Shown: positions 29,343 through 44,385, counted from the stretch's first letter. The stretch: 64,000 nucleotides of DNA from Gammaproteobacteria bacterium (GCA_020849475.1 JADLGE010000010.1:62001-126000), one strand, 5' to 3'. Notes: generated by a model from the sequence alone, not told the origin. Numbers and translations are program-made.

Positions 29343-30218
29343 TCACACCTTCAGCTTGCGTCGATCGCCATTGCTGACCACATGCGCGGCGGTCGGCGTG
29401 TTGAAATGCGCCGCCAGCATCCAGATGTCCTTGTCGGTCAGCTTGTCGAGAATCTTGCGACGCGAGGCCGTCGACATCGCCAAGTCCATGCAGAACGCGC
29501 TGTGCCATTCCGGGTAGGCGACCTGGATCGGATGATGGAAGGAGTCACCGGTCAACAGCGCCTGGCCTTTCTGGCCCTTGATGTTGATGCACACATGGCC
29601 CGGTGAATGACCGCGGCTCGGTTCCAGCCACACGGTGTCGTCGAGCGCGAAGTCGCTGGCGACGAGGTCGGCGCGGCCGGCTTCATAGACCGGCAGCACG
29701 CTGTCGGCGTAGGAGCCGTCGAGGCCGTGGTTGTCCTGCTGGTTGGACCAGCCTTCGAACTCGGTCTTGTCGAACACGTAACGCGCGTTCGGGAAGGTCG
29801 GCACCCACTTGCCGTTCTCGAGCTTGGTATTCCAGCCGACGTGATCGAAATGCAGGTGCGTGCACATCACGTGGGTGACTTCTTCCGGCTTGACGCCGAC
29901 GGCGGCGAGCTTGCCGATGTAATCGGAGCTGTAGTCGACCCAGTCCGGCACGGCGCTGCGCTTCTTGTGATTGCCGACGCAGGTGTCGACCAGGATCAGG
30001 TTCTTGCCGGAGCGCACCACGAAGGTGTGCAGCGACAGATGCAGCATCTCTTCATTGGGGCTGCCCTTGCTCGGCAGGAAGTGCGGCTCGAGCCAGTTGC
30101 GCTGGGAATCGAGAATGGCCTGGTCAAAGGTCGGGTAGAAATCTTTCAGCGGCAGCAGCGCGCCGTACCAGTCCTGCACGCGGTCGATGGTGACATTGCC
30201 GAAATTCAATTGCTTCAC
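29343..30218 (-). CDS. MBL-fold metallohydrolase, paralogue of the 8.2 kb gene
   Basis: The 291-residue protein has the zinc site CTHLHFDHVGWNT, then SRGHSPGHV and GDSFHHP, and a C-terminal AAHFNTPTA. Its order of motifs and the shared NGKWVPTFPNARYV segment show that it is a paralogue of the protein at 8167-9012. Lactonase-like or related hydrolytic activity is likely; the substrate is unknown. It is followed on the same strand by nothing but a terminator, and preceded 75 nt upstream by an AHL-lactonase-like gene. Confidence 0.88.
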   Translation of the reverse strand: MKQLNFGNVTIDRVQDWYGALLPLKDFYPTFDQAILDSQRNWLEPHFLPSKGSPNEEMLHLSLHTFVVRSGKNLILVDTCVGNHKKRSAVPDWVDYSSDYIGKLAAVGVKPEEVTHVMCTHLHFDHVGWNTKLENGKWVPTFPNARYVFDKTEFEGWSNQQDNHGLDGSYADSVLPVYEAGRADLVASDFALDDTVWLEPSRGHSPGHVCINIKGQKGQALLTGDSFHHPIQVAYPEWHSAFCMDLAMSTASRRKILDKLTDKDIWMLAAHFNTPTAAHVVSNGDRRKLKV

Positions 30219-30293: not shown

Positions 30294-31055
30294 TCAGCCG
30301 GCCTGCAACGGCGCCTGCGGCACGGTGCTCCAGAATTCCGGGTCGTGGCCGTACATGATTTTGGCGCCGCGCTTCTGCAGCTCTTTCAATTTGTGCAGTG
30401 AATTCATCATGGCGTCCTTGTCGGCGACAATGCCCGGCAGGCGCAGTTCGTCGAGGGTGCGGCGCAGGTAGCAGGCGTCACCGCACAGCACGATTTCACC
30501 GGACTCGGTCTGCAACTGCAGCGACTGGTGGCCAGGCGTGTGGCCGTGGGTCGGAATGCAGCGCACCGAGCCGTCACCGAACACATCGTGCTCGCCGTCG
30601 ACGATCACCATCTGGTGGCCGTGATCGTAATCGCGCGGGTCGTAGTAGTTGGCCTGGATGAGTTCCGGCACGTGGCCCGCTTCCCATTCCTTCTTCTGCA
30701 CGATGACGCGCGCATTGGGAATGAGCTCGTTGCCGCCGGCATGATCGAAATGCAGATGCGAGTTGATGACGAAATCGAGGCGCGAAGGATCGCGGCCGAT
30801 GCTATCGAGGCGCGCGGCGACGTCCTCACCCGGCTCGAAGTGCACCGTGAAATAGGGCTCCAGCGGCCCCAGGGCTTTGTGCTTGTCGCGCTGCACCAGC
30901 AGCGACATGCCCGAATCGAACAGCGCCACGCCCTTCTTGTGCTCGATGACATAGGCCGGGATCGGAATCTTGAGCGTGCCTTCGCCGCCTTCGATGAGCA
31001 TCGGCATCGGCATGGTGAGGTAGCCACAGGTCATGGCATAGAGTTTGACGGTCAC
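30294..31055 (-). CDS. N-acyl-homoserine-lactonase-like MBL enzyme (AiiA family)
   Basis: The GTG at 31055 is preceded by AGAGGAGG, a near-ideal ribosome binding site, and gives an N-terminus (MTVKLYAMTCGYL) like AiiA. The 253-residue protein has His100-x-His102-x-Asp104-His105 in NSHLHFDHAGG, as in AiiA. Further shared segments are VIVQKKEWEA, HGHTPGHQSL and YGHDPEF. The family opens the lactone ring of acyl-homoserine lactones, so it could degrade quorum signals, though other lactones are possible. The longer frame to 31475 antisense to HupE is not used. Confidence 0.85.
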   Translation of the reverse strand: MTVKLYAMTCGYLTMPMPMLIEGGEGTLKIPIPAYVIEHKKGVALFDSGMSLLVQRDKHKALGPLEPYFTVHFEPGEDVAARLDSIGRDPSRLDFVINSHLHFDHAGGNELIPNARVIVQKKEWEAGHVPELIQANYYDPRDYDHGHQMVIVDGEHDVFGDGSVRCIPTHGHTPGHQSLQLQTESGEIVLCGDACYLRRTLDELRLPGIVADKDAMMNSLHKLKELQKRGAKIMYGHDPEFWSTVPQAPLQAG

Positions 31056-31233: not shown

Positions 31234-32451
31234 TCACACACCGGCCACGCGCAACGCAAACCATGCGAGCCCCGACCACAGCACGGCATGCGATGCGCCG
31301 CGACGCGCCCGCGCTGCCCACGAGCGCCGCGCGGCCCACACCATGCCGGGCACCAGCACACACAGGAGCGCGACCTGAAAACTTTCGATACCGAGATTGA
31401 AGGCCAGCAGCGACCACAGCCAGTCATGCCCGCCGAATGCCTGCGCGCCCAGTGTTTTGGCCAGCGCGCCGGCAAAACCGAAGCCGTGGATCAAGCCGAA
31501 GGCGAACGCCAGCACCATGCCGTGGTCACCTCGGCGCTGCCGCACATTGCACAGGCCGACATAGGCGATGCTGAGTGCAATGGCGGGCTCGACCACTGCG
31601 CCCGGCGGTGCGACTAGCCCGGCGGCGGCAAGCCCCAAGGTCAGGCTGTGGGCGACGGTGAAGGCCGACACCACCGCCAGCAGTGCGCGCATCGAACGGC
31701 ACAGCAAGACCAGGCCGAGCAGGAACACCAGGTGATCCCAGCCAGTCGCGATGTGATGCATGCCAAGCACAAACAGCGCGGGCAGGCCGGCGCGATGCGT
31801 GGCGGCGGGTAATGGCGAGGCGGCGCGCGTGATGCTGTTCGGTGCGCGTGGCGCGCCGCTGAAATCAACGCGCAAGTCCGCGGTGGTGTCGTGCGGCAAA
31901 GCCGCGCCCGCCACCGGAAAGCGCGTCAGCCCGGCGCTGCGGTCGTGACGGGCCGCGCCGCTCTCGACGATGCGCGCACCGCGCTCGGCCCGCACCCACA
32001 GTTCACGCCAACCGCTGTCCGTCGGCGCCGAAGCATCGACGAAATGCAGGCGCATGCTGCCGCGCAGGGGCGCGCGAGTGGTGAACACGCCATGCAGACG
32101 CAATTGCTGCAGACCGGCGGCGCCCTCGAGCAGTTGCCAGTCGAGACTCGCGCTCTGCAATGCGAGGGCGCGCTGCGCCGCGCTGAGATGCAGGGCCGGC
32201 AGCAGCGCGCCGCTCCACGCGTCGGCAAAGGCCTGCCATTCACTGCGACTGATCTGTCCGTCGCCATCGCGGTCGGCGCTCTGCTGCGCAAGCAGCGTCG
32301 GGATCTCGGCCAATTCCTGGCGATAGTCGATGCGCACAGTGTCGCCGTCCATGGTCAATGCCACGGCGCGATTGACGGTGTTGTTGCCGAGTGGATGAGC
32401 CGCGACGAGTGCGCTCCACAGCCATATCACCAGCGTGGTGAGGGCCTTCAT
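31234..32451 (-). CDS. HupE/UreJ-family membrane protein with N-terminal EF-hand domain
   Basis: The 405-residue protein has a signal peptide (MKALTTLVIWLWSALVAA). The exported N-terminal domain holds a canonical 12-residue EF-hand loop (Asp60 to Glu71, DRDGDGQISRSE). The C-terminal half has about six hydrophobic helices with conserved GMHHIATGWDHLVFLLGL and AFGLIHGFGFAGAL, the HupE/UreJ_2 signature. HupE and UreJ are linked to nickel supply, but members of this second group have no known function. It is the last gene of the DUF4331 operon, overlapping the preceding TPR gene by ATGA. Confidence 0.82.
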   Translation of the reverse strand: MKALTTLVIWLWSALVAAHPLGNNTVNRAVALTMDGDTVRIDYRQELAEIPTLLAQQSADRDGDGQISRSEWQAFADAWSGALLPALHLSAAQRALALQSASLDWQLLEGAAGLQQLRLHGVFTTRAPLRGSMRLHFVDASAPTDSGWRELWVRAERGARIVESGAARHDRSAGLTRFPVAGAALPHDTTADLRVDFSGAPRAPNSITRAASPLPAATHRAGLPALFVLGMHHIATGWDHLVFLLGLVLLCRSMRALLAVVSAFTVAHSLTLGLAAAGLVAPPGAVVEPAIALSIAYVGLCNVRQRRGDHGMVLAFAFGLIHGFGFAGALAKTLGAQAFGGHDWLWSLLAFNLGIESFQVALLCVLVPGMVWAARRSWAARARRGASHAVLWSGLAWFALRVAGV

Positions 32452-33683
32452 GGTTGGCGCGCGATTAGCTCGGCCGTGTCAGCGAGCCATGGCTGGATGC
32501 GCAAGGCGGCAGCAACCTGGGCCGCGCCACGGCCGTCACCGCAGGCCGTCAGCACCGTGCCGGCGCGCCACTGCAACAGGGGTTCGATGCTGTGCTCGGC
32601 AATCGCGCGCACGGCGAAGTCGCGCGCCTCGTCGTGCTGAGCGGCGCGCCATAGCACCCACGCGAGTTGCGCGGCGCTGTGTACGTCGGGACGCTGCGCC
32701 CATTCGACACGCGCGAGTCTGAGCGCGGCCGGTAGTTCGTCATTCATCAAATGAAACTCGACCCAGGCGCGCCGATCACCACCGCCATCGGCGGGCGCAA
32801 GACTTTCCATGCCGCGCAGCAGGCGCGTGGTGGTGGCCGCCAGTTGCGTCTCACCGAGCGGGTGGGCAAGCCGCAGCAGTTCGACTTCAGTCTCGACGCG
32901 CGCACTACGCGCCGCCGCGACGCGGTACAGGGTGAGCGCCGCGCGTGGCGCACCCAGCGCCTGCTGCGCGCGGGCCTGCATGACAAGCGCCGCGGCCGGC
33001 ATGTCCGTGACTGCAGCAGTTGCGAGCGCGAGCGCCACCCGCGGCCGGCCGGCCAGAAGTTCGAGCGCCGCGATATCGAGGGTCAGCCACGCACGGTCGA
33101 CGGCGCTGGCGCTCTGGCGCAGGGCCGCCTGCGCAAGTTCGAGAGCGCCCGGCAGATCGCCGAACAGGCGACGCAGATGAGACGCACGCGACAAGGCGGC
33201 GCTGCCATAGTGTTCGTCGAGCAGGGCCTGCACCGCCTGCTCGGCCTCGCGGTAGCGACCAAGCTCGGTCAATGCATCGGCTTCGCTGAGCGCGGCCAGC
33301 AGCGCGTCGGCATTCGATGCCCGCGCCCGTCGCGCCGCCTGCAAGGCCTGCTCGAAGCGATGCAAGATCAAGAGCCGCCACGCATCGAGCGCATCGGCGC
33401 GCGGCGCATGGGCGGCGAGCAGTTGCTCAATCAAGGCCTCGGCGCGCGCCAACTGCTCGGCGCGCGGCTCGATACGCACCTGCGCCAACAGCGCCGCGGC
33501 CAAGGCCTGCATCACCTCGACATTGCCAGGCCGCGCGGCCAAGGCCTGCTCCAGCGCGGGGATGTCCGTGGGCGGTGGCGCGCTGCGCGCCTGCGACGAC
33601 GCGCACGGCAGCCACAGCGCCAGCGCGCACACCAGCCAGCGCGCGACCACGCTCAACGCAACGACACGCGACGACGACGCCAC
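32448..33683 (-). CDS. Exported TPR-repeat protein (second of two)
   Basis: The 411-residue protein has a signal peptide (about residues 10-32) and then TPR-like helical hairpins rich in Ala/Leu/Arg, such as EADALTELGRYREAEQAVQALL and LFGDLPGALELAQAAL. Its size and layout match the TPR protein at 34363-35493, so they are probably paralogues. The frame starts inside the preceding PEP-CTERM gene (31-nt overlap); GTG or TTG codons at 33650-33656 are alternative starts. It probably acts as a periplasmic scaffold. Confidence 0.75.
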   Translation of the reverse strand: MASSSRVVALSVVARWLVCALALWLPCASSQARSAPPPTDIPALEQALAARPGNVEVMQALAAALLAQVRIEPRAEQLARAEALIEQLLAAHAPRADALDAWRLLILHRFEQALQAARRARASNADALLAALSEADALTELGRYREAEQAVQALLDEHYGSAALSRASHLRRLFGDLPGALELAQAALRQSASAVDRAWLTLDIAALELLAGRPRVALALATAAVTDMPAAALVMQARAQQALGAPRAALTLYRVAAARSARVETEVELLRLAHPLGETQLAATTTRLLRGMESLAPADGGGDRRAWVEFHLMNDELPAALRLARVEWAQRPDVHSAAQLAWVLWRAAQHDEARDFAVRAIAEHSIEPLLQWRAGTVLTACGDGRGAAQVAAALRIQPWLADTAELIARQP

Positions 33684-34345
33684 AACGGCAGCAGCCCCGC
33701 CACCATCAGGCTCAAGGCATTGGGGCTCGGCACGGCATTCAATCTGACATCGACGCTGGCGAGCGAGAACCCGTAGAGCGTGTCAGCGCCGCCGTCACCA
33801 AAGCCGTCCATGCTGCTGACGAGACCGACATGCAACAGGCCCTGCTCACCCGGCGCAAGCGCGAAGCGACGCGTGATGATCTGCGTGTCGGTAAATATTT
33901 CGTCGAACAGCGTTTGCGCGCCGATGCTTACCGCGAGTGTCAGACTCGTGCCGCCGTCGGCGCCCGCCAGGTCGAGCAGCGATTCGAAGTCGAGCGTCAG
34001 CACATAGGCGCCAGCAATACCCAAGCTCTGCTCGAGACTCACTTCCGCGACCGCGCCAGCGTGATGAAGACTGCCCTGCGCTTCGCTGCTGACGCCGAGC
34101 AATCCGTCCTCGGCGATGGCATCGGCGTTGGCGAATTCATCGACGTCGATATCGGCGCCCACTATCGCGGCATGACTGAACACCGGCAGCGCAGCGGGTG
34201 GGCTGTCGAAGGCGTGTATACCGTCGCTGTCGGCATCGACTTCGGCGTAGGTCGACACGCTGTAACGCGCGTGGCTGAGATCGACAGGCAGCGCGTGGGC
34301 CGCGCCGCTCAACATCAACAGCACGGTAAACATGAATCGCGACAT
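33653..34345 (-). CDS. PEP-CTERM-like exported protein in the DUF4331 operon
   Basis: The 230-residue protein has a short signal peptide (MSRFMFTVLLMLSGAAHA) and a beta-rich body. The C-terminal tripartite signal is VPSPNALSLMVAGLLPLW followed by RRRRVSLR. The motif is VPSPN rather than VPEP or VPLPA but fits the general PEP-CTERM pattern. It lies between two TPR genes, 17 nt after the first. The body has no cysteine; I do not recognise a domain. Confidence 0.75.
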   Translation of the reverse strand: MSRFMFTVLLMLSGAAHALPVDLSHARYSVSTYAEVDADSDGIHAFDSPPAALPVFSHAAIVGADIDVDEFANADAIAEDGLLGVSSEAQGSLHHAGAVAEVSLEQSLGIAGAYVLTLDFESLLDLAGADGGTSLTLAVSIGAQTLFDEIFTDTQIITRRFALAPGEQGLLHVGLVSSMDGFGDGGADTLYGFSLASVDVRLNAVPSPNALSLMVAGLLPLWRRRRVSLR

Positions 34346-34362
34346 GGCGGTCTCCTGGATGA

Positions 34363-35493
34363 TCAGCGCAGGTGGTTGGAAGATTCGATGGCACTCGCCA
34401 GCGTGGCGTGCAGGGCGGCGCTGAGCGCCAGGTATTCGGTGTCGCGCCAGCCGAGTTTGGCGAGTGCGCGGACCGGCGCGCGTGCTTCATCGTCACGGCC
34501 GGCGCGGTGCAGGGCGGTGGCGTAAGCAAGCACAGTCTCGACATCGGCACGCTGCGCGCGCGCACTGGCGGCGAAGCTGACGGCGCGCGCCGCATCCTGG
34601 CCTTCGAAGGCGTAGTAACTGCTGAGCGCGAGCTTGGCGTGGTCGTCGACATCGGCGCTGGCCAGCGCACGCGCAGCGAACTCGCGCAGCATCGGCGCGG
34701 CCACCACGGCTTGGCCGGCCGCCGCAGTGGCGCGCGCGAGCATCAACTGCTCGGTCACGCCGGGCCGCGCGCGATACGCGGCCTGCGCACGCTGCAGAGC
34801 CTGCGTGACATCGCCGCGTAAACGCGCCTGGCGCGCGCCTTCCGCCAAAGCAGGCAAGTAGGCGGGCCACGCCGCCAGCGCCGCCGTCAGCGCCTGCTCG
34901 GCCACCGCGCCCTGCCCCGCACCGAATTGCAGGCGCGCGAGCTGGGTGTAGCGCGCCGCGCGCATTTCGTACTGGTCTTCGGTGACGCGGTTGAGACTTG
35001 CCGTGACGAAATCAATTGCGCCCTGCCAGTCGCCATAGAGTTCGCGCAGCTGCGCGGCGCGCGCCAGGCCCGGCAGGTTGTCGGGTCGCAGGTCGAGCAG
35101 ACGCTGGGTGTCGCGCTCGGCATCGTTGTAGCGTCCGAGTGCGAGCTCGGCATCGATCAAAAGCGCCCAGGTATCGACGTCATCGGGAAAGCGTGCGTTG
35201 AGCGTGATGGCGCGTGTGAGCGCCGTCTGATCTTCGCGACGCGCGAGCAACAATGCCACGGCCGAGCGTTGCGCGCGGTAGTCATCAGGCGCTTGCGCGA
35301 GGGCCGCGCGCAGAAGGGTCTCGGCAGGTTCGAGGTCTGCGTCGTCACCGCTGGCGCGATGCTGCGCGAGCGCGGCGTCGACGCGCGTGATTACATTCTC
35401 GATGGCATTGTCGATGGCGATGTCGGCCGCCTGCACGCGCAGGGCGAGCAGCAGGAAGCTTGCGTACAGGACCAACGCGAGGGTGTTCTTCAT
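34363..35493 (-). CDS. Exported TPR-repeat protein (first of two)
   Basis: The start at 35493 begins a signal peptide (MKNTLALVLYASFLLLALRVQA) and has GGAAA upstream, giving 376 residues. The frame is open further upstream, but those residues run through a palindrome in the leader. The body is a chain of TPR-like hairpins, for example LLRAALAQAPDDYRAQRSA and ALGRYNDAERDTQRLLDL. Likely a periplasmic protein-interaction scaffold working with the other products of the operon. Confidence 0.78.
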   Translation of the reverse strand: MKNTLALVLYASFLLLALRVQAADIAIDNAIENVITRVDAALAQHRASGDDADLEPAETLLRAALAQAPDDYRAQRSAVALLLARREDQTALTRAITLNARFPDDVDTWALLIDAELALGRYNDAERDTQRLLDLRPDNLPGLARAAQLRELYGDWQGAIDFVTASLNRVTEDQYEMRAARYTQLARLQFGAGQGAVAEQALTAALAAWPAYLPALAEGARQARLRGDVTQALQRAQAAYRARPGVTEQLMLARATAAAGQAVVAAPMLREFAARALASADVDDHAKLALSSYYAFEGQDAARAVSFAASARAQRADVETVLAYATALHRAGRDDEARAPVRALAKLGWRDTEYLALSAALHATLASAIESSNHLR

Positions 35494-35524
35494 CGACGTT
35501 TCCGGGTTGCGGTTCAAGACGAAT

Positions 35525-35542
35525 GTCCGAATGAATTCGGAC
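35525..35542. repeat. REP-like palindrome, family 2
   Basis: GTCCGAAT-GA-ATTCGGAC is a perfect inverted repeat with the same central CGAAT-GA-ATTCG core as the copies at 9017 and 63192. It lies between the DUF4331 and first TPR genes. Confidence 0.7.
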
Positions 35543-35552
35543 CTGCAGAGAT

Positions 35553-35581
35553 GGCTGCGCCGGGTGTCTGCCGGCGCAGCC
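35553..35581 (-). terminator. Intra-operon hairpin after the DUF4331 gene
   Basis: GGCTGCGCCGG and CCGGCGCAGCC form a perfect 11-bp stem with a 7-nt loop, 13 nt after the DUF4331 stop. No T-tract follows on the minus strand, so it more likely acts as a partial attenuator or mRNA-stabilising stem that lets DUF4331 be made in excess over the downstream genes. Confidence 0.5.
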
Positions 35582-35594
35582 ATCACGACTTACC

Positions 35595-37142
35595 TCAGGG
35601 CGCGCAGGCCGCGCCGCTGCCGGCCGTGCAACCCGCTTCACCCGGATCGATGTGCCGGCGATCGCGGCCCGAGGGTGCATCGGCGAGGTAAGGAAACACT
35701 GTGCGATAAGGCGCGTCGTTGCTGTTCACACCGTCGCCGAGGCGACCGCCGATATCGGCGCTGTAGCCGGGAAACGGCGCGTGCAATACGCCGCCGACCA
35801 CCAGCCGCAGGGCAATGTCGGTGACGTCGTCGAACACGCGACGGCCGTTGGGGAAACCGGCGCCGTCGCCGCCGAGCAAGCCTAAGCGACTGGCGGCGCC
35901 GGGCGCGGTGGGTGCGACACCGGTGTTCAGACGCAGCAGGTCGGCGATGGGGCCCGCGGGCGTGCCGGCGGCGGCTATTGGCGGTGCGTAAGTCACCACC
36001 GGCAAGAGATCGGTGCGTGGCGCGGGCGGAATGGCGACCACGCCCGCGGTCAAGGCATTCACCACCCGCGCCAGCGACGGGTCGAGAAAGAAATTGGCGA
36101 ACTGGCTGTCGTGCTTCGGCACGTCCATGCTGAAACGGTCCTTGAAGCCGGTGCCGATCACGAGTTCGTTGATGAGCGGGTTGCCCATGCGCTGCACCTG
36201 GCGATAACCGCCCGAATCCGCCGCCGGCAAGGGCGAGCGACGCACCGTCACGCGCGGCCGTGAAGTCGTGCCCCACACGCCGATGGTGGCGGCGGTTGAA
36301 TTGGCCGCTTCGACCTGGCCGCTCCTGGTCAGCATCGTCACCGGCACTTCAATGGCGATGGAATTGACCGCATAGCCAGACACCGTGTCGGACGAGAGAT
36401 TGTCCTGCGCGGCATCCTGGCCGGCGCTCAACACCGGAAAGGAATGGGTGTTCAAAGTATCGAAGGCGCCACCGAGATCGATCCAGAACGCGTCGTCAGT
36501 GGTGCCGGCAAACGCTTTGACGTTGCCCGCCAGGCTGTGCACGCCGGCGTTGAACAGCGCCGTGTAATCCATGGTGCGCGGCCCGACATTGGCCGGCACG
36601 GTGGCGAGATGCGTGCCGAGCACGGAGCGCGACTTGAGGACCCCCTTGCTGTAACGCACGAGGGTCAGGGTGTAGGTCTGCTTCTGGCCGAGACCGGCAT
36701 CGGTGGCCTGTGTGATCCTGTCGGGCACAATGGGTGTGCCCGGTGCTACCGGTGCGGGGGAATTGGCCGGCGCATTGGCGCCGCCCGGCACGCCGGCATA
36801 GGCCTGGAACAGGTTGGGCAAGGTCTGCTGGGTGGAAAAGCGCACTTCGAGACCCAGGTCTTCGAGCGCGTCGTTGTCGTTATCGACTTTCAGTTCGTAG
36901 ACGATATCCGAGTCAAAGGGAAACCAGTTGGGGCCATTGGCCGGCTCAAGCAGCGGGTCGACGCCCAGGATCAAGGTGACCTTGGGCGTGGCATCGGCCG
37001 GGTCGTAACTACGGAAGGCATAGACGTCGGTGATGTCGGCCTTGTGATCGAGCGCCGTGATCGGCGCCTCGCGATGATTGGCAGCCTGCGCCCACGGCGC
37101 CAGCACCAGGCTCGCCGCCGTCAGCAATATGCGATAGTTCAT
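35595..37142 (-). CDS. DUF4331 exported protein, first gene of the putative ECF-controlled operon
   Basis: The start at 37142, with CAGGGAGAG upstream, gives 515 residues beginning with a signal peptide (MNYRILLTAASLVLAPWAQA). The mature protein opens with NHREAPITALDHKADITDVYAFR, the DUF4331 hallmark. Other family features include LGGAFDTLN and RVFDDVTDIALRLVVGG. The C-terminus has two cysteines (EAGCTAGSGAACAP). DUF4331 proteins are extracytoplasmic and have no known activity. The gene is divergent from an ECF sigma factor, and a sigma-like promoter motif sits 41 nt upstream of the start. Confidence 0.88.
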   Translation of the reverse strand: MNYRILLTAASLVLAPWAQAANHREAPITALDHKADITDVYAFRSYDPADATPKVTLILGVDPLLEPANGPNWFPFDSDIVYELKVDNDNDALEDLGLEVRFSTQQTLPNLFQAYAGVPGGANAPANSPAPVAPGTPIVPDRITQATDAGLGQKQTYTLTLVRYSKGVLKSRSVLGTHLATVPANVGPRTMDYTALFNAGVHSLAGNVKAFAGTTDDAFWIDLGGAFDTLNTHSFPVLSAGQDAAQDNLSSDTVSGYAVNSIAIEVPVTMLTRSGQVEAANSTAATIGVWGTTSRPRVTVRRSPLPAADSGGYRQVQRMGNPLINELVIGTGFKDRFSMDVPKHDSQFANFFLDPSLARVVNALTAGVVAIPPAPRTDLLPVVTYAPPIAAAGTPAGPIADLLRLNTGVAPTAPGAASRLGLLGGDGAGFPNGRRVFDDVTDIALRLVVGGVLHAPFPGYSADIGGRLGDGVNSNDAPYRTVFPYLADAPSGRDRRHIDPGEAGCTAGSGAACAP

Positions 37143-37182
37143 GGATGACTCTCCCTGCACCGGATTGGTGATGATTCGAGGG

Positions 37183-37211
37183 CTCTACGCAGTGACGGCG
37201 CGCCCTGGATG
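37183..37211 (-). promoter_or_regulatory. Predicted ECF sigma promoter of the DUF4331 operon
   Basis: On the minus strand, CATCCA (37211-37206) is followed after 13 nt by CTGCGTAGAG (37192-37183). The motif is matched on the other strand a few bases away in the sigma gene promoter. The 17-nt distance from ATCC to CGTA is normal for ECF -35/-10 elements, and the leader to the start at 37142 would be about 35 nt. Confidence 0.6.
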
Positions 37212-37216
37212 CAGCT

Positions 37217-37244
37217 CATCCAAAAAAACATTTGCTGCGTAGGG
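37217..37244 (+). promoter_or_regulatory. Predicted autoregulatory ECF sigma promoter
   Basis: CATCCA (37217-37222) and CTGCGTAGGG (37235-37244) are 12 nt apart and repeat the motif of the divergent operon, facing the sigma gene that starts at 37336. The spacer is A-rich (seven As). Two facing copies of the same motif in one 193-nt gap suggest that the sigma factor recognises both. Confidence 0.6.
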
Positions 37245-37335
37245 CAGGCATGAATACGACGGGTATCAAGGCGGGCATTGAACCGCGCACACGGGAGTCG
37301 GGCACTCAGGCCTTGCCTGTCATCGACAACACACC

Positions 37336-37923
37336 ATGGATGCCGCTCGCCGCCAACTGCCCGACAACGACGCGCTCAACGCCGCCGCGCGTGAGTGGAT
37401 AGCGCGCATGGCCTGCGGTGACGAAACCGGCATGGGTCTGCTCTACGACGGCACGCTGGGCCACGTCTACGGCCTGGCGCTGCGTGTGACGCGCGATGCC
37501 GATGCCGCCGAGGACGTGGTGGCGGAAACCTATCTGCAGGTCTGGCAGCAGGCCGGCCGTTACGATGGCGAGCGCGGCACGCCGCTGGCGTGGCTGTTGA
37601 ACATCACGCGCAGCCGCGCGCTCGACCACCTGCGACGCCGCGCCAGCGCACTCGGTGTCGATAATGTCGCCGTTGCAGCAGCACTCGACGAGGCGCTGCA
37701 TGAGGACGATCCGTTGTCGCTGGTGATGGCGCTCGAACGCGAACAGGGGCTCAAGCGCGCGATTGCGGCGCTGTCACCCATCCCACAACGGCTGCTGGGC
37801 CTGGCGTTTTTCGAGGGGCTCTCGCACAGCGAGATCGCCGCGCGCACCGGTCTGCCGCTAGGCACGGTGAAATCCCATTTGCGGCGCGCGCAGGACAGCC
37901 TGCGCCACCATTACCGCGACTAG
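37336..37923 (+). CDS. ECF-type RNA polymerase sigma factor
   Basis: The 195-residue protein has sigma region 2 (AEDVVAETYLQVWQQAGRYDGERGTP is the 2.2-2.4 area) and region 4 with the HTH LSHSEIAARTGLPLGTVKSHLRRA. The short length without regions 1 and 3 defines an ECF factor. A cupin ChrR-like protein is encoded 23 nt downstream, the arrangement seen for RpoE-ChrR pairs. It probably transcribes its own operon and the divergent DUF4331 operon. Confidence 0.92.
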   Translation: MDAARRQLPDNDALNAAAREWIARMACGDETGMGLLYDGTLGHVYGLALRVTRDADAAEDVVAETYLQVWQQAGRYDGERGTPLAWLLNITRSRALDHLRRRASALGVDNVAVAAALDEALHEDDPLSLVMALEREQGLKRAIAALSPIPQRLLGLAFFEGLSHSEIAARTGLPLGTVKSHLRRAQDSLRHHYRD

Positions 37924-37946
37924 GCGCGGCCCATGAAGGCAACAGC

Positions 37947-38516
37947 GTGAACGGACACGACGACATCGACGACAAGCTGGGCGACGACGCCCTGCCGCCA
38001 GCGCTCATGCACGAGCTCATGAGCGGCCTGCGCCCACTGCCTCCGCCGCCCGAGCGGGCCGCCGCGCTGCGTGCACGGGTGATGGGTTCGTTGCGCGAGG
38101 CCGCGCAGGAAGACAGCGAACTGTCGCTCGCAATCGCGGCCTTGCGCAGCCTCACGCCGCTCGCTGACGCGCGTTGGGAAGAGCGCTGGCCGGGCATCGA
38201 ACTGTGCATGCTGCGGGTCGCGGACGACAGCCGCTCCTATCTCATGCGCATGCAACCCGGCAGCCGCCTGCCGGCCCATGTCCACAGCCGTGACGAAGTC
38301 AGCATGATCATCGAAGGGGAAGCGCTGGTGGGTGGCACGCAGCGCATGGGACCGGGGGATTTTCAATTCATGCCGGCCGGTGTCGATCACGCCGTGATCG
38401 ATTCACCCGCCGGCTGCATCGCCTTCATTCACGGCGAGCAGAGCTTTCGCCCGCGCCTGACCGCCGGCTTCGTGGCGCGCTTCATCCACTACACCGTGCA
38501 GCGCTGGTCGCGCTGA
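37947..38516 (+). CDS. ChrR-like cupin anti-sigma factor
   Basis: The GTG start at 37947 with GAAGG upstream gives 189 residues. The C-terminal half is a cupin with metal-binding PAHVHSRDEVSMIIEGEAL and PAGVDHAVID. The N-terminal half is helical, as in ChrR anti-sigma domains, but I do not see the His-x3-Cys-x2-Cys zinc motif of classic ZAS proteins. The factor may therefore sense its signal through the cupin metal site alone. In Rhodobacter ChrR releases RpoE on singlet oxygen; the signal here is unknown. Confidence 0.78.
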   Translation: MNGHDDIDDKLGDDALPPALMHELMSGLRPLPPPPERAAALRARVMGSLREAAQEDSELSLAIAALRSLTPLADARWEERWPGIELCMLRVADDSRSYLMRMQPGSRLPAHVHSRDEVSMIIEGEALVGGTQRMGPGDFQFMPAGVDHAVIDSPAGCIAFIHGEQSFRPRLTAGFVARFIHYTVQRWSR

Positions 38517-41012: not shown

Positions 41013-41284
41013 GGGGACTGGATACCTGGTTTCGAAAACGTGACGGGGTAAGGTCGCGTAGGGCGCGTTCGCGGGCCGCTACACGAAGCGGTCCGCGCTG
41101 GAGTTAGCGGCTCGAAGGCGTCGGTCTGAAGGCGCGGCCAGCAGCGATGTCGGGACACAAACGTTTGCATGGTCGGCCACGCGTGGCGTGACCGCGCGCT
41201 TGGTTGCCCGCGCCGGCCATGCTAGCTTCGACGCTTGGGAAACCCCCGGCCGCGAAGGCCCGGGCCAGCACGGAACAGCATCAC

Positions 41285-42118
41285 ATGGCATCCAGACGCG
41301 GTCGCTCCGGCGACGACATCCTGTACGGCTCCGCACAGCGCGACCACCTCTCCGGTCTGAACGGCGATGATCGCATGTATGGCCGTGACGGCGACGATCG
41401 CATGGCCGGCGGCGCCGGCAACGACTACCTGAGCGGCGGCAAGGGCACCGATATCCTGCTCGGCGACACCGGGGACGATCGACTCTACGGCGACCAGGGC
41501 AAGGACAGTCTCTATGGCGGCGCGAATCGCGACGCGCTGTTCGGCGGCCCCGGCGCGGACCGCCTCGACGGCGGCGCGGGCCGCGATGCGCTGCACGGCG
41601 GTGACGGCGCGGACCGTCTGGTGTACGACGCCCAGGACCGCCTCATCGATGGCGACGCCGGCCGCGACACCCTCATCATTGGCGGCAGCGGCGTGACCCT
41701 CGATTTGAACCTGGCCGGCACGCCGCGCATTGATCACATCGAGGTCATCGATTTGAACGGCGCCGGCGCCAACACCCTGCGCCTCGACGCCGCCGATGTG
41801 CTGGCCATCAACACCCAGCACACCCTGCTGGTGATGGGCGGCGCGGATGACTCGGTTATTTCACCGACCGACGTGTGGACGCAGAATGTCGCGGGTGCGG
41901 TGGATATCGGCGGCCAGCACTACCTGGCGTGGGATGTGGGGCTTGCGCACCTGTTGGTGGATGCGGATATCACGCTCAACAACGTCACGCCGGGAGGCGA
42001 ATCGTTCGCAAGTTTCCAGAACGTCTTCTTCAGCAGCTTCACCGATGTCAGTCTTGTACACAGGGGAACCATCGGCCCGCTGACCGAATTTCCAATCGTG
42101 GAACCCCCACCGGTCTGA
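41285..42118 (+). CDS. RTX-type calcium-binding repeat protein
   Basis: From the ATG at 41285 the protein has 277 residues; TTG 41204 or ATG 41219 in the same frame are alternative starts and no ribosome binding site decides. The first 110 residues consist of about eleven GGxGxDxLx-type nonapeptides (SGDDILYGS, NGDDRMYGR, AGNDYLSGG, TGDDRLYGD and so on), which form a calcium-dependent beta-roll. The second half is a beta-rich domain I do not recognise, rich in Leu/Ile/Asn. Such proteins are usually exported by type I secretion without a signal peptide; no ABC exporter is present here. Confidence 0.82.
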   Translation: MASRRGRSGDDILYGSAQRDHLSGLNGDDRMYGRDGDDRMAGGAGNDYLSGGKGTDILLGDTGDDRLYGDQGKDSLYGGANRDALFGGPGADRLDGGAGRDALHGGDGADRLVYDAQDRLIDGDAGRDTLIIGGSGVTLDLNLAGTPRIDHIEVIDLNGAGANTLRLDAADVLAINTQHTLLVMGGADDSVISPTDVWTQNVAGAVDIGGQHYLAWDVGLAHLLVDADITLNNVTPGGESFASFQNVFFSSFTDVSLVHRGTIGPLTEFPIVEPPPV

Positions 42119-42130
42119 CCCAGCCGGCGC

Positions 42131-42412
42131 TCAGCCGCCGGCTATCCCCACCATGAAGGAAATGGTCTCGCCGTCGGCGAGGGTGTCTTCCATCGAGATC
42201 CGTCGACCCTTGGTGTCGACGAACATCGTGCCCTTCTCGCTCAGTTCACCGGTCTCGGCGTCGATCAGAATCGCGCGCATCTTCTCGCCGTAGCGCGCAC
42301 TGATGCGCTCGGCGAGTTCCGCCACCAGCGGTTCCTGGAGCTCAAAGGAATCACGGCCGGTGGCCGCCAGTTCCTTGAAGTGACTGTGAAACTCGGTATG
42401 CACGGTGATCAT
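42131..42412 (-). CDS. MoaD/ThiS-like sulfur-carrier protein
   Basis: The 93-residue protein starts at 42412 (MITVHTEFHSHFKELA) and ends in MVGIAGG. A C-terminal Gly-Gly and the beta-grasp pattern mark MoaD/ThiS family members, which carry sulfur as a thiocarboxylate. It is the last gene of the aldehyde ferredoxin oxidoreductase operon, 11 nt behind it. It may therefore be dedicated to building the pyranopterin (tungsten or molybdenum) cofactor of that enzyme. Confidence 0.8.
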   Translation of the reverse strand: MITVHTEFHSHFKELAATGRDSFELQEPLVAELAERISARYGEKMRAILIDAETGELSEKGTMFVDTKGRRISMEDTLADGETISFMVGIAGG

Positions 42413-42423
42413 GCGCGTATCTC

Positions 42424-44385
42424 TCAGGCCAGCGCGCCGTCGGCGGCCAGCACCTCGGCGACATCGTCCATGCCGAGTTCGCGCATCTTGCTGCGGGTCT
42501 GCAGACCGGTGTCGCGATCCCAACCGCGCCATTCGTAGTATTCGTCAAGCACCGGCACGAACATGTCGGCCGCCACTTTGCCGGCATACATACCTTCCGG
42601 GTTCGGCTCCCACATCCAGCGTTCGCAGATGGTGTCGTGTTCGCGACGCAAGCCGATGCGCGAGTTGATGGCCTTCTCGAGATTGCAGATGCGCTCGCCG
42701 TCCTGCATGAGTTCGTCGGGCGTGCGCTCAATGCCGGTGACGGCGGCGAAGGCTTTGCCGTAATACTCCTGCGGCATGTAGCCGGCCGGGTCGAGCATCC
42801 AGTGGAACAGGCACACGCCGTAGGAATTGAGCAAGGCCACCTGGTTTTCGACCAGCGCCGTGCACGCGCCCTTCAATACCGGCGTCGACAGATCGGCGGC
42901 CTCGGTGCGGCCGTTGAAATATTTCTTCGAGAGATCCTTGCGCTGGAATTTCTCGATGAGACCGATGCCCTTCAGGTGATCGGCGCCGCGCGAGGCGACC
43001 GCCATGTTGTTCATCCAGGTCGGGAACGGCCGCATTTCCTCGGTGAAGCTCGCGCCGCCCTTGCCGTAGATGGCGTACTTCATGAAGTTCTGGCCCTTCA
43101 TGGCGGACAGCTTCAGCGCGCCGAAGTAAGGCCCGTCGCTGAACATCACGCCGAAGGGATTGCTCTGGAACACCACGCTTTCGATGCAGGCCTCGATGTC
43201 TTCCATGTTGCCCCAGCGCAAGGGCTGGGCGCGGCCGAAAAGCTCGGCAACATCGCGGTCCGACAACAGCTCGCGCTGCTTCAATTCCATGATGAAGCTG
43301 ATTGAGCAGGACAAGTCCTGGTTGTCGACGCCGTAGTCGTTGGTGATCTTGCCCCAGTGCGCGACCTCGGCCCAATCGCGCACGTCGAGCATGCCGGCAG
43401 CGCTGCCGGTGGTGAGATATTCGGGGCGGCGGAACGCTTCGCCCTTGTACTTGGCGGCGGCCTCGGTCTCGTTGCCTTCGATTTTGTATTTGCCGTCGCA
43501 GGCAATGAAGCAGTCGGACGAACAGACTTCCGAGTAACGGTGATACTTCTTCACCCAGTTGTCGGAGCGCACTTCTTCGCCGCGGAACTGGTTGCCCTGG
43601 TTGTTGCGCCAGGCGTGGCCGCCGATGTGCTGATACATCTCGACCGCGCCCAAGGTGCCGCGACGCTTGAAGCCATACACCGCTTCGTTGCCGTCTATCT
43701 TGCCCTTGAAGTCCTTCGACCACGCCAGCATGTCTTTCGGGCGCGTGACCGGCAGGCCGCCGTTGCCCTGCACGGCGATGGCTTTCAAATTCTTCGAGCC
43801 CAGCACCGCGCCGCCGCCGCCGCGCGCATGGATGCGCAAGGCATCGGCCACCACGCCCGCCACGCCGACCATGTTCTCGCCGGCCTGGCTTATGGACAGC
43901 GTGCTGGTCTTGGACGGCCAGGTGCCGTGGGTCTCCTGCAGGATGGCGTGGGTCTCGCTGGTGTTCTTGCCCCACAGGTGCGCAGCGTCGAGCAAGGACA
44001 CTTCATCGTTGCAGATATGCAGATACATCGGCTTCGGCGCGCGGCCCGTGATGGCGATGTATTCGTAGGCGGTGAAGCGCACCATGTAGGGAAACTTGCC
44101 GCCACCGGCCGAGTCGCCAAAGATGCCATAGGTCGGGCTCTTGAAGGTGATGCGGCCCTTCACGCCGCTGCCGGCGCCGGTGCCGGCCAAGGGCCCGACG
44201 CCGAACACGAAGATGTTGTCGGGACTGCGCGGATCGCAGTGGATGTCGTGGGTTAAAAAATGCTCCCACATGATCCAGTTGTTGATGCCCGAGCCACCCA
44301 CCCAGCGTTCGAACATCTGGTGCGGGATGACTTCACTCTTCAACTCACCGGTGGTGAGATCGACGCGCAATAAACGGCTTTCCAT
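42424..44385 (-). CDS. Aldehyde ferredoxin oxidoreductase-family tungsten/molybdenum enzyme
   Basis: The 653-residue protein has the AOR N-terminal pattern (LLRVDLTTGELKSE, FERWVGGSGIN, GPLAGTGAGSGVKGR). The iron-sulfur site is CSSDCFIAC in the middle with a fourth Cys in LNSYGVCLFH. The first spacing (C-x3-C-x3-C) is wider than the CxxCxxxC of classical AOR, so the enzyme may belong to a BamB-like or other branch. The family oxidises aldehydes or reduces acids or aromatic thioesters at a bis-pyranopterin W or Mo centre. The neighbouring ferredoxin and MoaD-like genes support a working complex. Confidence 0.87.
   Translation of the reverse strand: MESRLLRVDLTTGELKSEVIPHQMFERWVGGSGINNWIMWEHFLTHDIHCDPRSPDNIFVFGVGPLAGTGAGSGVKGRITFKSPTYGIFGDSAGGGKFPYMVRFTAYEYIAITGRAPKPMYLHICNDEVSLLDAAHLWGKNTSETHAILQETHGTWPSKTSTLSISQAGENMVGVAGVVADALRIHARGGGGAVLGSKNLKAIAVQGNGGLPVTRPKDMLAWSKDFKGKIDGNEAVYGFKRRGTLGAVEMYQHIGGHAWRNNQGNQFRGEEVRSDNWVKKYHRYSEVCSSDCFIACDGKYKIEGNETEAAAKYKGEAFRRPEYLTTGSAAGMLDVRDWAEVAHWGKITNDYGVDNQDLSCSISFIMELKQRELLSDRDVAELFGRAQPLRWGNMEDIEACIESVVFQSNPFGVMFSDGPYFGALKLSAMKGQNFMKYAIYGKGGASFTEEMRPFPTWMNNMAVASRGADHLKGIGLIEKFQRKDLSKKYFNGRTEAADLSTPVLKGACTALVENQVALLNSYGVCLFHWMLDPAGYMPQEYYGKAFAAVTGIERTPDELMQDGERICNLEKAINSRIGLRREHDTICERWMWEPNPEGMYAGKVAADMFVPVLDEYYEWRGWDRDTGLQTRSKMRELGMDDVAEVLAADGALA

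Follow-up and report, generated by a model that had tools for sequence, protein, structure and literature searches.

A conserved DUF4331 operon facing an ECF sigma factor as a candidate envelope system for nickel or copper capture

Gene content of the locus

In this study, a 64,000-nucleotide stretch of a Gammaproteobacteria bacterium genome (GCA_020849475.1, JADLGE010000010.1:62001-126000; hereafter the window) was analysed for a series of minus-strand genes encoding, in order, a DUF4331 protein, a tetratricopeptide repeat (TPR) protein, a PEP-CTERM protein, a second TPR protein and a HupE_UreJ_2 protein. This series faces the divergent genes of an extracytoplasmic function (ECF) sigma factor and a cupin protein (Table 1). 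All seven genes listed in the initial annotation of this DNA were found at their positions and on the strands described, and the undescribed envelope system that it proposed as a candidate proved to be a real, conserved and probably undescribed module. We read the module, with a probability of about 60%, as an operon for the capture and transport of nickel or copper (possibly cobalt) in the cell envelope, in which the metal, the direction and the role of DUF4331 are inferred. This reading, which the initial annotation had not foreseen, comes from an anglerase-type domain in the permease and from an N-terminal X-X-His in DUF4331.

Table 1. Genes and predicted promoters of the DUF4331 locus, in window coordinates
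Feature	Position	Strand	Basis
DUF4331 protein, 515 aa	35595..37142	minus	PF14224 340.5 bits, cut-off 27
Exported TPR protein 1, 376 aa	34363..35493	minus	TPR models below cut-off; TIGR02917 36 bits
PEP-CTERM protein, lineage-specific addition	33653..34345	minus	C-terminal VPSPNALSLMVAGLLPLWRRRR; genome exosortase; counterpart in L035
Exported TPR protein 2, 411 aa, GTG start	32448..33683	minus	TPR_16 below cut-off
Anglerase-type permease: exported beta-sandwich and HupE_UreJ_2 membrane domain	31234..32451	minus	PF13795 127.4 bits, cut-off 24.5
ECF sigma factor, SigK-like	37336..37923	plus	Sigma70_r2 and r4_2 above cut-off
Cupin protein, ChrR-type domain, presumed anti-sigma factor	37947..38516	plus	PF12973 43.7 bits
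Predicted ECF promoter of DUF4331 operon, CATCCA-N15-GCGTAG	37185..37211	minus	motif match
Predicted ECF promoter of sigma gene, CATCCA-N14-GCGTAG	37217..37242	plus	motif match

DUF4331 is the single member of its family detected by profile search in the window's genome. Both TPR proteins match several Pfam TPR models, all under the Pfam cut-offs. The PEP-CTERM call is held up by the visible C-terminal VPSPNALSLMVAGLLPLWRRRR and by an exosortase in the genome (TIGR02602, 218.9 bits versus a cut-off of 105.55), whereas the NCBIfam PEP-CTERM models score below their cut-offs.

Conservation of the module

By profile search, DUF4331 was detected in 31 of 369 sampled genomes of the window's class, in 58 of 296 from the phylum of an Acidimicrobial centre genome, and in 45 of 201 from the phylum of a Chloroflexi centre genome. 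Many of the 31 class genomes, which come from different families, keep the order ECF-anti-sigma, DUF4331, TPR, HupE, and the core of an ECF gene and DUF4331-TPR-permease is kept in order in Proteobacteria, Acidobacteria, Nitrospira, Actinobacteria and Chloroflexi. Named genomes, scanned with the DUF4331 N-terminal motif as search pattern, yielded 80 loci from Acidobacteria, Gammaproteobacteria (Competibacter, Accumulibacter, Methylomonas), Nitrospira, Planctomycetota, Chloroflexi and Streptomyces; the DUF4331-TPR-permease series was often present in these, with an ECF gene alongside. Where exported DUF4331 genes had enough flanking sequence, a permease was found at 50 of 75 loci, a TPR gene at 67 of 85 and an ECF gene at 47 of 84; the corresponding counts for exported loci found by profile alone were about 21 of 32 (permease) and about 24 of 32 (TPR). 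The initial annotation had left the conservation of this gene order to be checked; the order recurs across phyla, is kept far beyond chance expectation, and makes it near certain that a conserved DUF4331 module is real. A search of 5.39 million open papers found none naming DUF4331, while the control term DUF4198 did return papers; the gene group is probably undescribed.

The core does not include every gene of the window's operon. L035, a family relative, has the sigma, cupin, DUF4331, TPR and PEP-CTERM genes, with no permease found adjoining. This close relative is the only place where a counterpart of the PEP-CTERM gene was seen; this gene and the second TPR gene are local additions. No support was found for a system centred on TPR proteins that organise a PEP-CTERM protein at the cell surface.

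Permease with an anglerase-type domain

The model of the mature HupE-like protein (predicted local distance difference test, pLDDT, 74.7) falls into two parts, the exported beta-sandwich and a bundle in the membrane. Among solved structures, the exported half is closest to the copper-bound Ang-1 domain of a HupE/UreJ-2 protein (9GCE; Foldseek E 9.3e-5, probability 1.00; VIA Z 8.4, root mean square deviation 4.2 over 143), and next to zinc-binding ZrgA and PA4063. Ang-1 and the window protein share the exported beta-sandwich, an N-terminal His after the signal peptide and the fusion to HupE_UreJ_2; the window permease differs in its 13% identity in the fold match, its HPLGN start and its EF-hand loop. 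On the basis of the predicted structure, the protein is an anglerase-permease, as a remote member of that group. Its His lies right after the predicted signal peptide (LVAA/HPLGN, the slash marking the cleavage site read from sequence), and an Ala precedes that His in 55 of 62 automatically picked permease homologues. Invariant residues of the membrane part include H215, H222, H250, E270, H304, N334 and E338. An EF-hand had been annotated in the exported part: the window protein itself, at 23.8, scores just under the Pfam cut-off of 25.9, but 46 of the 62 homologues have D-x-[DN]-x-[DN]-G-x-I-T-W-x-E or a similar loop.

Domains of the Ang-1 type use their N-terminal His to bind Cu2+ (Kd ~74 nM) and Ni2+ (220 nM), and metal uptake has been proposed for such HupE/UreJ-2 proteins (Franco Cairo et al., PMC12537917). 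The gene neighbours reported there are DUF4198, indigoidine-like and PfkB proteins; DUF4331 and TPR partners are not mentioned. By likeness to Ang-1, the window permease may be predicted to bind Cu2+ or Ni2+ through its His1. Actinobacteria, Chloroflexi and some Acidobacteria have, in the permease slot, a NicO nickel/cobalt transporter (NicO / HoxN-HupN-NixA / RcnA, PF03824) whose exported start is of the same kind, whereas the membrane half in the window is HupE_UreJ_2.

DUF4331 and its N-terminus

The mature DUF4331 protein was modelled with a pLDDT of 91.8 and a predicted template modelling score (pTM) of 0.92. Foldseek, run against the PDB and a viral library, gave no match at E 0.001, and the best VIA score (Z 5.6) was with antibody-type sandwiches, which may reflect a common arrangement only. 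This null result leaves the novelty of the fold unproven; the fold is perhaps absent from the PDB. A sequence search of the PDB gave no credible match for either DUF4331 or the permease.

In the window protein, the signal peptide is followed by a predicted mature N-terminus of A-N-H-R-E-A-P, that is, X-X-His. A signal-peptide-like stretch precedes this motif in 101 of 107 motif-bearing members. All but one of the exported members (100/101) have a small or aliphatic residue at -3 and a small one at -1 directly before [AS][NS]H, and 87 of the 101 have a strict AxA-type site there, with none one residue to either side. Because the named-genome scan had been probed with the N-terminal motif, N-terminal conservation was re-tested on sets found only by profile; the residue before X-X-H was Ala, Gly or Ser in about 87 of these proteins and the start Met in 19. 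The latter 19 are signal-less and begin M-S-S-H-R-E-A-P, so that removal of the Met would expose X-X-His, and divergent short members carry S-D-H or S-H-H after the predicted cut. The identical placement of X-X-His in exported and signal-less forms suggests that the free amino group matters.

An X-X-His at a free N-terminus is the amino-terminal copper- and nickel-binding (ATCUN) pattern for Cu(II) and Ni(II). Like ATCUN-motif proteins, DUF4331 is predicted to have a free N-terminus whose third residue is His; it differs in that the motif heads a 495-residue conserved fold, and the metal site is predicted from sequence position. Binding of Ni or Cu by DUF4331 through X-X-His is a tentative proposal, which we hold at somewhat below even odds. 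The broader idea comes a little short of an even chance: DUF4331 would be a new Ni/Cu-binding family, perhaps of a fold absent from the PDB, whose N-terminal X-X-His is freed by signal peptidase in exported members and by loss of the Met in cytosolic ones, and which gives metal to, or takes it from, several unrelated permeases of nickel type across bacteria.

Signal-less DUF4331 genes have other neighbours. No TPR or HupE-type permease was detected at any of 18 such loci, many of them from few lineages, whereas exported members usually have both. In 12 of the 18 (L243-L260), the gene is followed by a small uncharacterised domain (VLDIG-x-x-IGALVLYT ... RTHT-x-V-x-ER) that had no Pfam match in the two proteins scanned. 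At L257:5815-7383 (minus), the next gene, 108 bp downstream of DUF4331, fuses this domain to a HoxN/NixA-type nickel transporter (349.9 bits versus a cut-off of 333). A nickel transporter was considered as the usual follower of signal-less DUF4331 and rejected: the small domain follows instead, and its fusion to a transporter occurs only in L257. A divergent short DUF4331 subfamily (~350-410 aa; L174-L176 and L293-L295) has a signal peptide wherever its starts are readable; three of its loci were examined, and neither a TPR gene nor a permease was detected nearby.

Sigma factor, cupin protein and promoter motifs

The nearest NCBIfam subfamily of the sigma factor, which likely controls the operon, is SigK and not RpoE/ECF11 (PRK09646, 126.8 bits, under the cut-off of 226). 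Between the sigma gene and DUF4331 there are two back-to-back matches to CATCCA-N14/15-GCGTAG, against 0.03 expected in the window. Upstream of DUF4331, CATCCA-N14..17-[CT]GTA occurs in 20 of 96 loci (0.135 expected from shuffles, at most 1), and its reverse-strand form, directed toward the sigma gene, in 9 of 96 (0.14 expected). This position and recurrence suggest that the motif is the promoter sequence recognised by this sigma factor; its -35 element CATCC resembles that of SigK. The promoter-like motifs point both ways from the intergenic region, and the placement of the operon under the divergent ECF sigma factor, made in the initial annotation, is very likely. A whole-genome scan gave six sites, equal to the control count of six, so that no wider regulon can be read and only the site before DUF4331 is credible.

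The cupin protein had been called ChrR-like. The ChrR-type domain (PF12973) is indeed present, but the protein scores far under the cut-off of the ChrR model (TIGR02451, 35.7 versus 124.5 bits), and a search for the HxxxCxxC zinc anti-sigma motif in it found none. The RpoE-ChrR (ECF11) singlet-oxygen system likewise has an ECF sigma gene followed by one for a ChrR-type cupin protein; the window differs from it in the cupin without HxxxCxxC, the SigK-like sigma factor and the CATCCA...CGTA motif. The missing zinc motif weakens the singlet-oxygen parallel. SigK-RskA (ECF18/ECF19) is the other relevant system: SigK is the best subfamily for the window sigma factor, and in many sister loci an RskA-type membrane anti-sigma factor (RskA_C) replaces the cupin partner. 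The window system differs from SigK-RskA in its presumed anti-sigma factor, a cytosolic cupin, in its -10 CGTA and in a regulon that appears limited to the operon.

Proposed function and alternatives

These features, drawn from sequence and predicted structure where metal binding, transport and induction are concerned, are consistent with the following scheme. A signal would free the sigma factor from its partner (the cytosolic cupin here, a membrane RskA-type protein elsewhere), and the freed sigma factor would transcribe its own gene and the DUF4331 operon. Exported DUF4331 would bind metal at the free N-terminus made by signal peptidase (X-X-His, ATCUN type), with the TPR protein as a putative periplasmic adaptor. 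The metal may then be handed to the anglerase domain at its N-terminal His and cross the membrane by way of the HupE/NicO-type domain, most probably inward; in this scheme, the second TPR protein and the PEP-CTERM protein would be local additions. If this is true, it would give the widespread DUF4331 family its first function, set the newly described anglerase-permeases within a full regulated system, and sharpen a vague annotation to a prediction about a single residue, His3 of mature DUF4331. The module had been suggested to respond to stress or metal; a metal role is the best reading.

Uptake is favoured by TonB-dependent receptors beside the module at several loci (L118:11469-13808, L097:10186-12489, L111, L113, L115 and L116), in one case 18 bp past the permease and in another in its place. 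In the Nitrospira receptors, the plug region contains the motif THAHGQGY. Urease, present in the window's own genome, was found in 17 of the 31 DUF4331 genomes of the class versus 68 of 338 others (Fisher p 6e-5), and, counted by family, in 13 of 24 versus 43 of ~158 (p 0.016; the family total is an estimate).

Several points weigh against metal capture. The urease link lies mostly between families and fades within them, making lineage a confounder. NiFe hydrogenase showed no association with DUF4331 (8/31 versus 72/338 genomes) and was rejected as the customer for the metal. The Z scores of the exported half, near 8, are modest, and part of that model is of low confidence; signal cleavage is read from sequence; and about one third of exported DUF4331 loci have no nearby permease. 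In addition, the tested NicO member had its best score against PRK10019, a model of nickel/cobalt efflux, and resembles RcnA, which keeps efflux in play.

The last point belongs to an unlikely alternative, metal or copper detoxification, in which excess metal would induce the operon, be sequestered by periplasmic DUF4331 and leave the cell through the membrane protein. ECF-type stress control and the preference of Ang-1 for Cu2+ (PMC12537917) would also fit such a role; the TonB receptors, the urease association and the importer-family (HoxN/NixA) fusion adjoining a signal-less DUF4331 argue for capture instead. A calcium or general envelope-stress module, with the EF-hand sensing calcium, the TPR proteins scaffolding surface proteins and metal transport incidental, appears very improbable: the EF-hand loop of most permeases, the TPR proteins at most exported loci and the PEP-CTERM protein of the window agree with it, but the permease is swapped only among Ni/Co-type transporters, its exported half has the anglerase fold, and the PEP-CTERM protein is not conserved. 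A further alternative concerns DUF4331 alone and is compatible with a metal-transport operon. DUF4331 may be an enzyme or structural protein whose N-terminus serves folding, with X-X-His unrelated to metal; we consider this rather unlikely, if less so than detoxification. Three observations suit this explanation: in the TPR proteins, too, the conserved part starts shortly behind the signal peptide; DUF4331 has conserved Asp, Arg and Glu at other places; and its fold has no clear PDB relative for comparison. The position of X-X-His, however, is exact whether signal peptidase or the start Met makes the N-terminus, and is kept even in the divergent short members.

Other genes in the window

Just downstream of the operon, two minus-strand genes (29343-30218 and 30294-31055) encode metallo-beta-lactamase-fold proteins; that at 30294-31055 resembles AttM-type lactonases, yet scores below the family cut-off (163.6 versus 390). 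Inspection by eye further suggested an aldehyde ferredoxin oxidoreductase-like protein at 42131-44385 (minus) with a MoaD/ThiS-like small protein downstream, and, at 41204-42118 (plus), a protein with glycine-aspartate repeats resembling RTX calcium-binding repeats.

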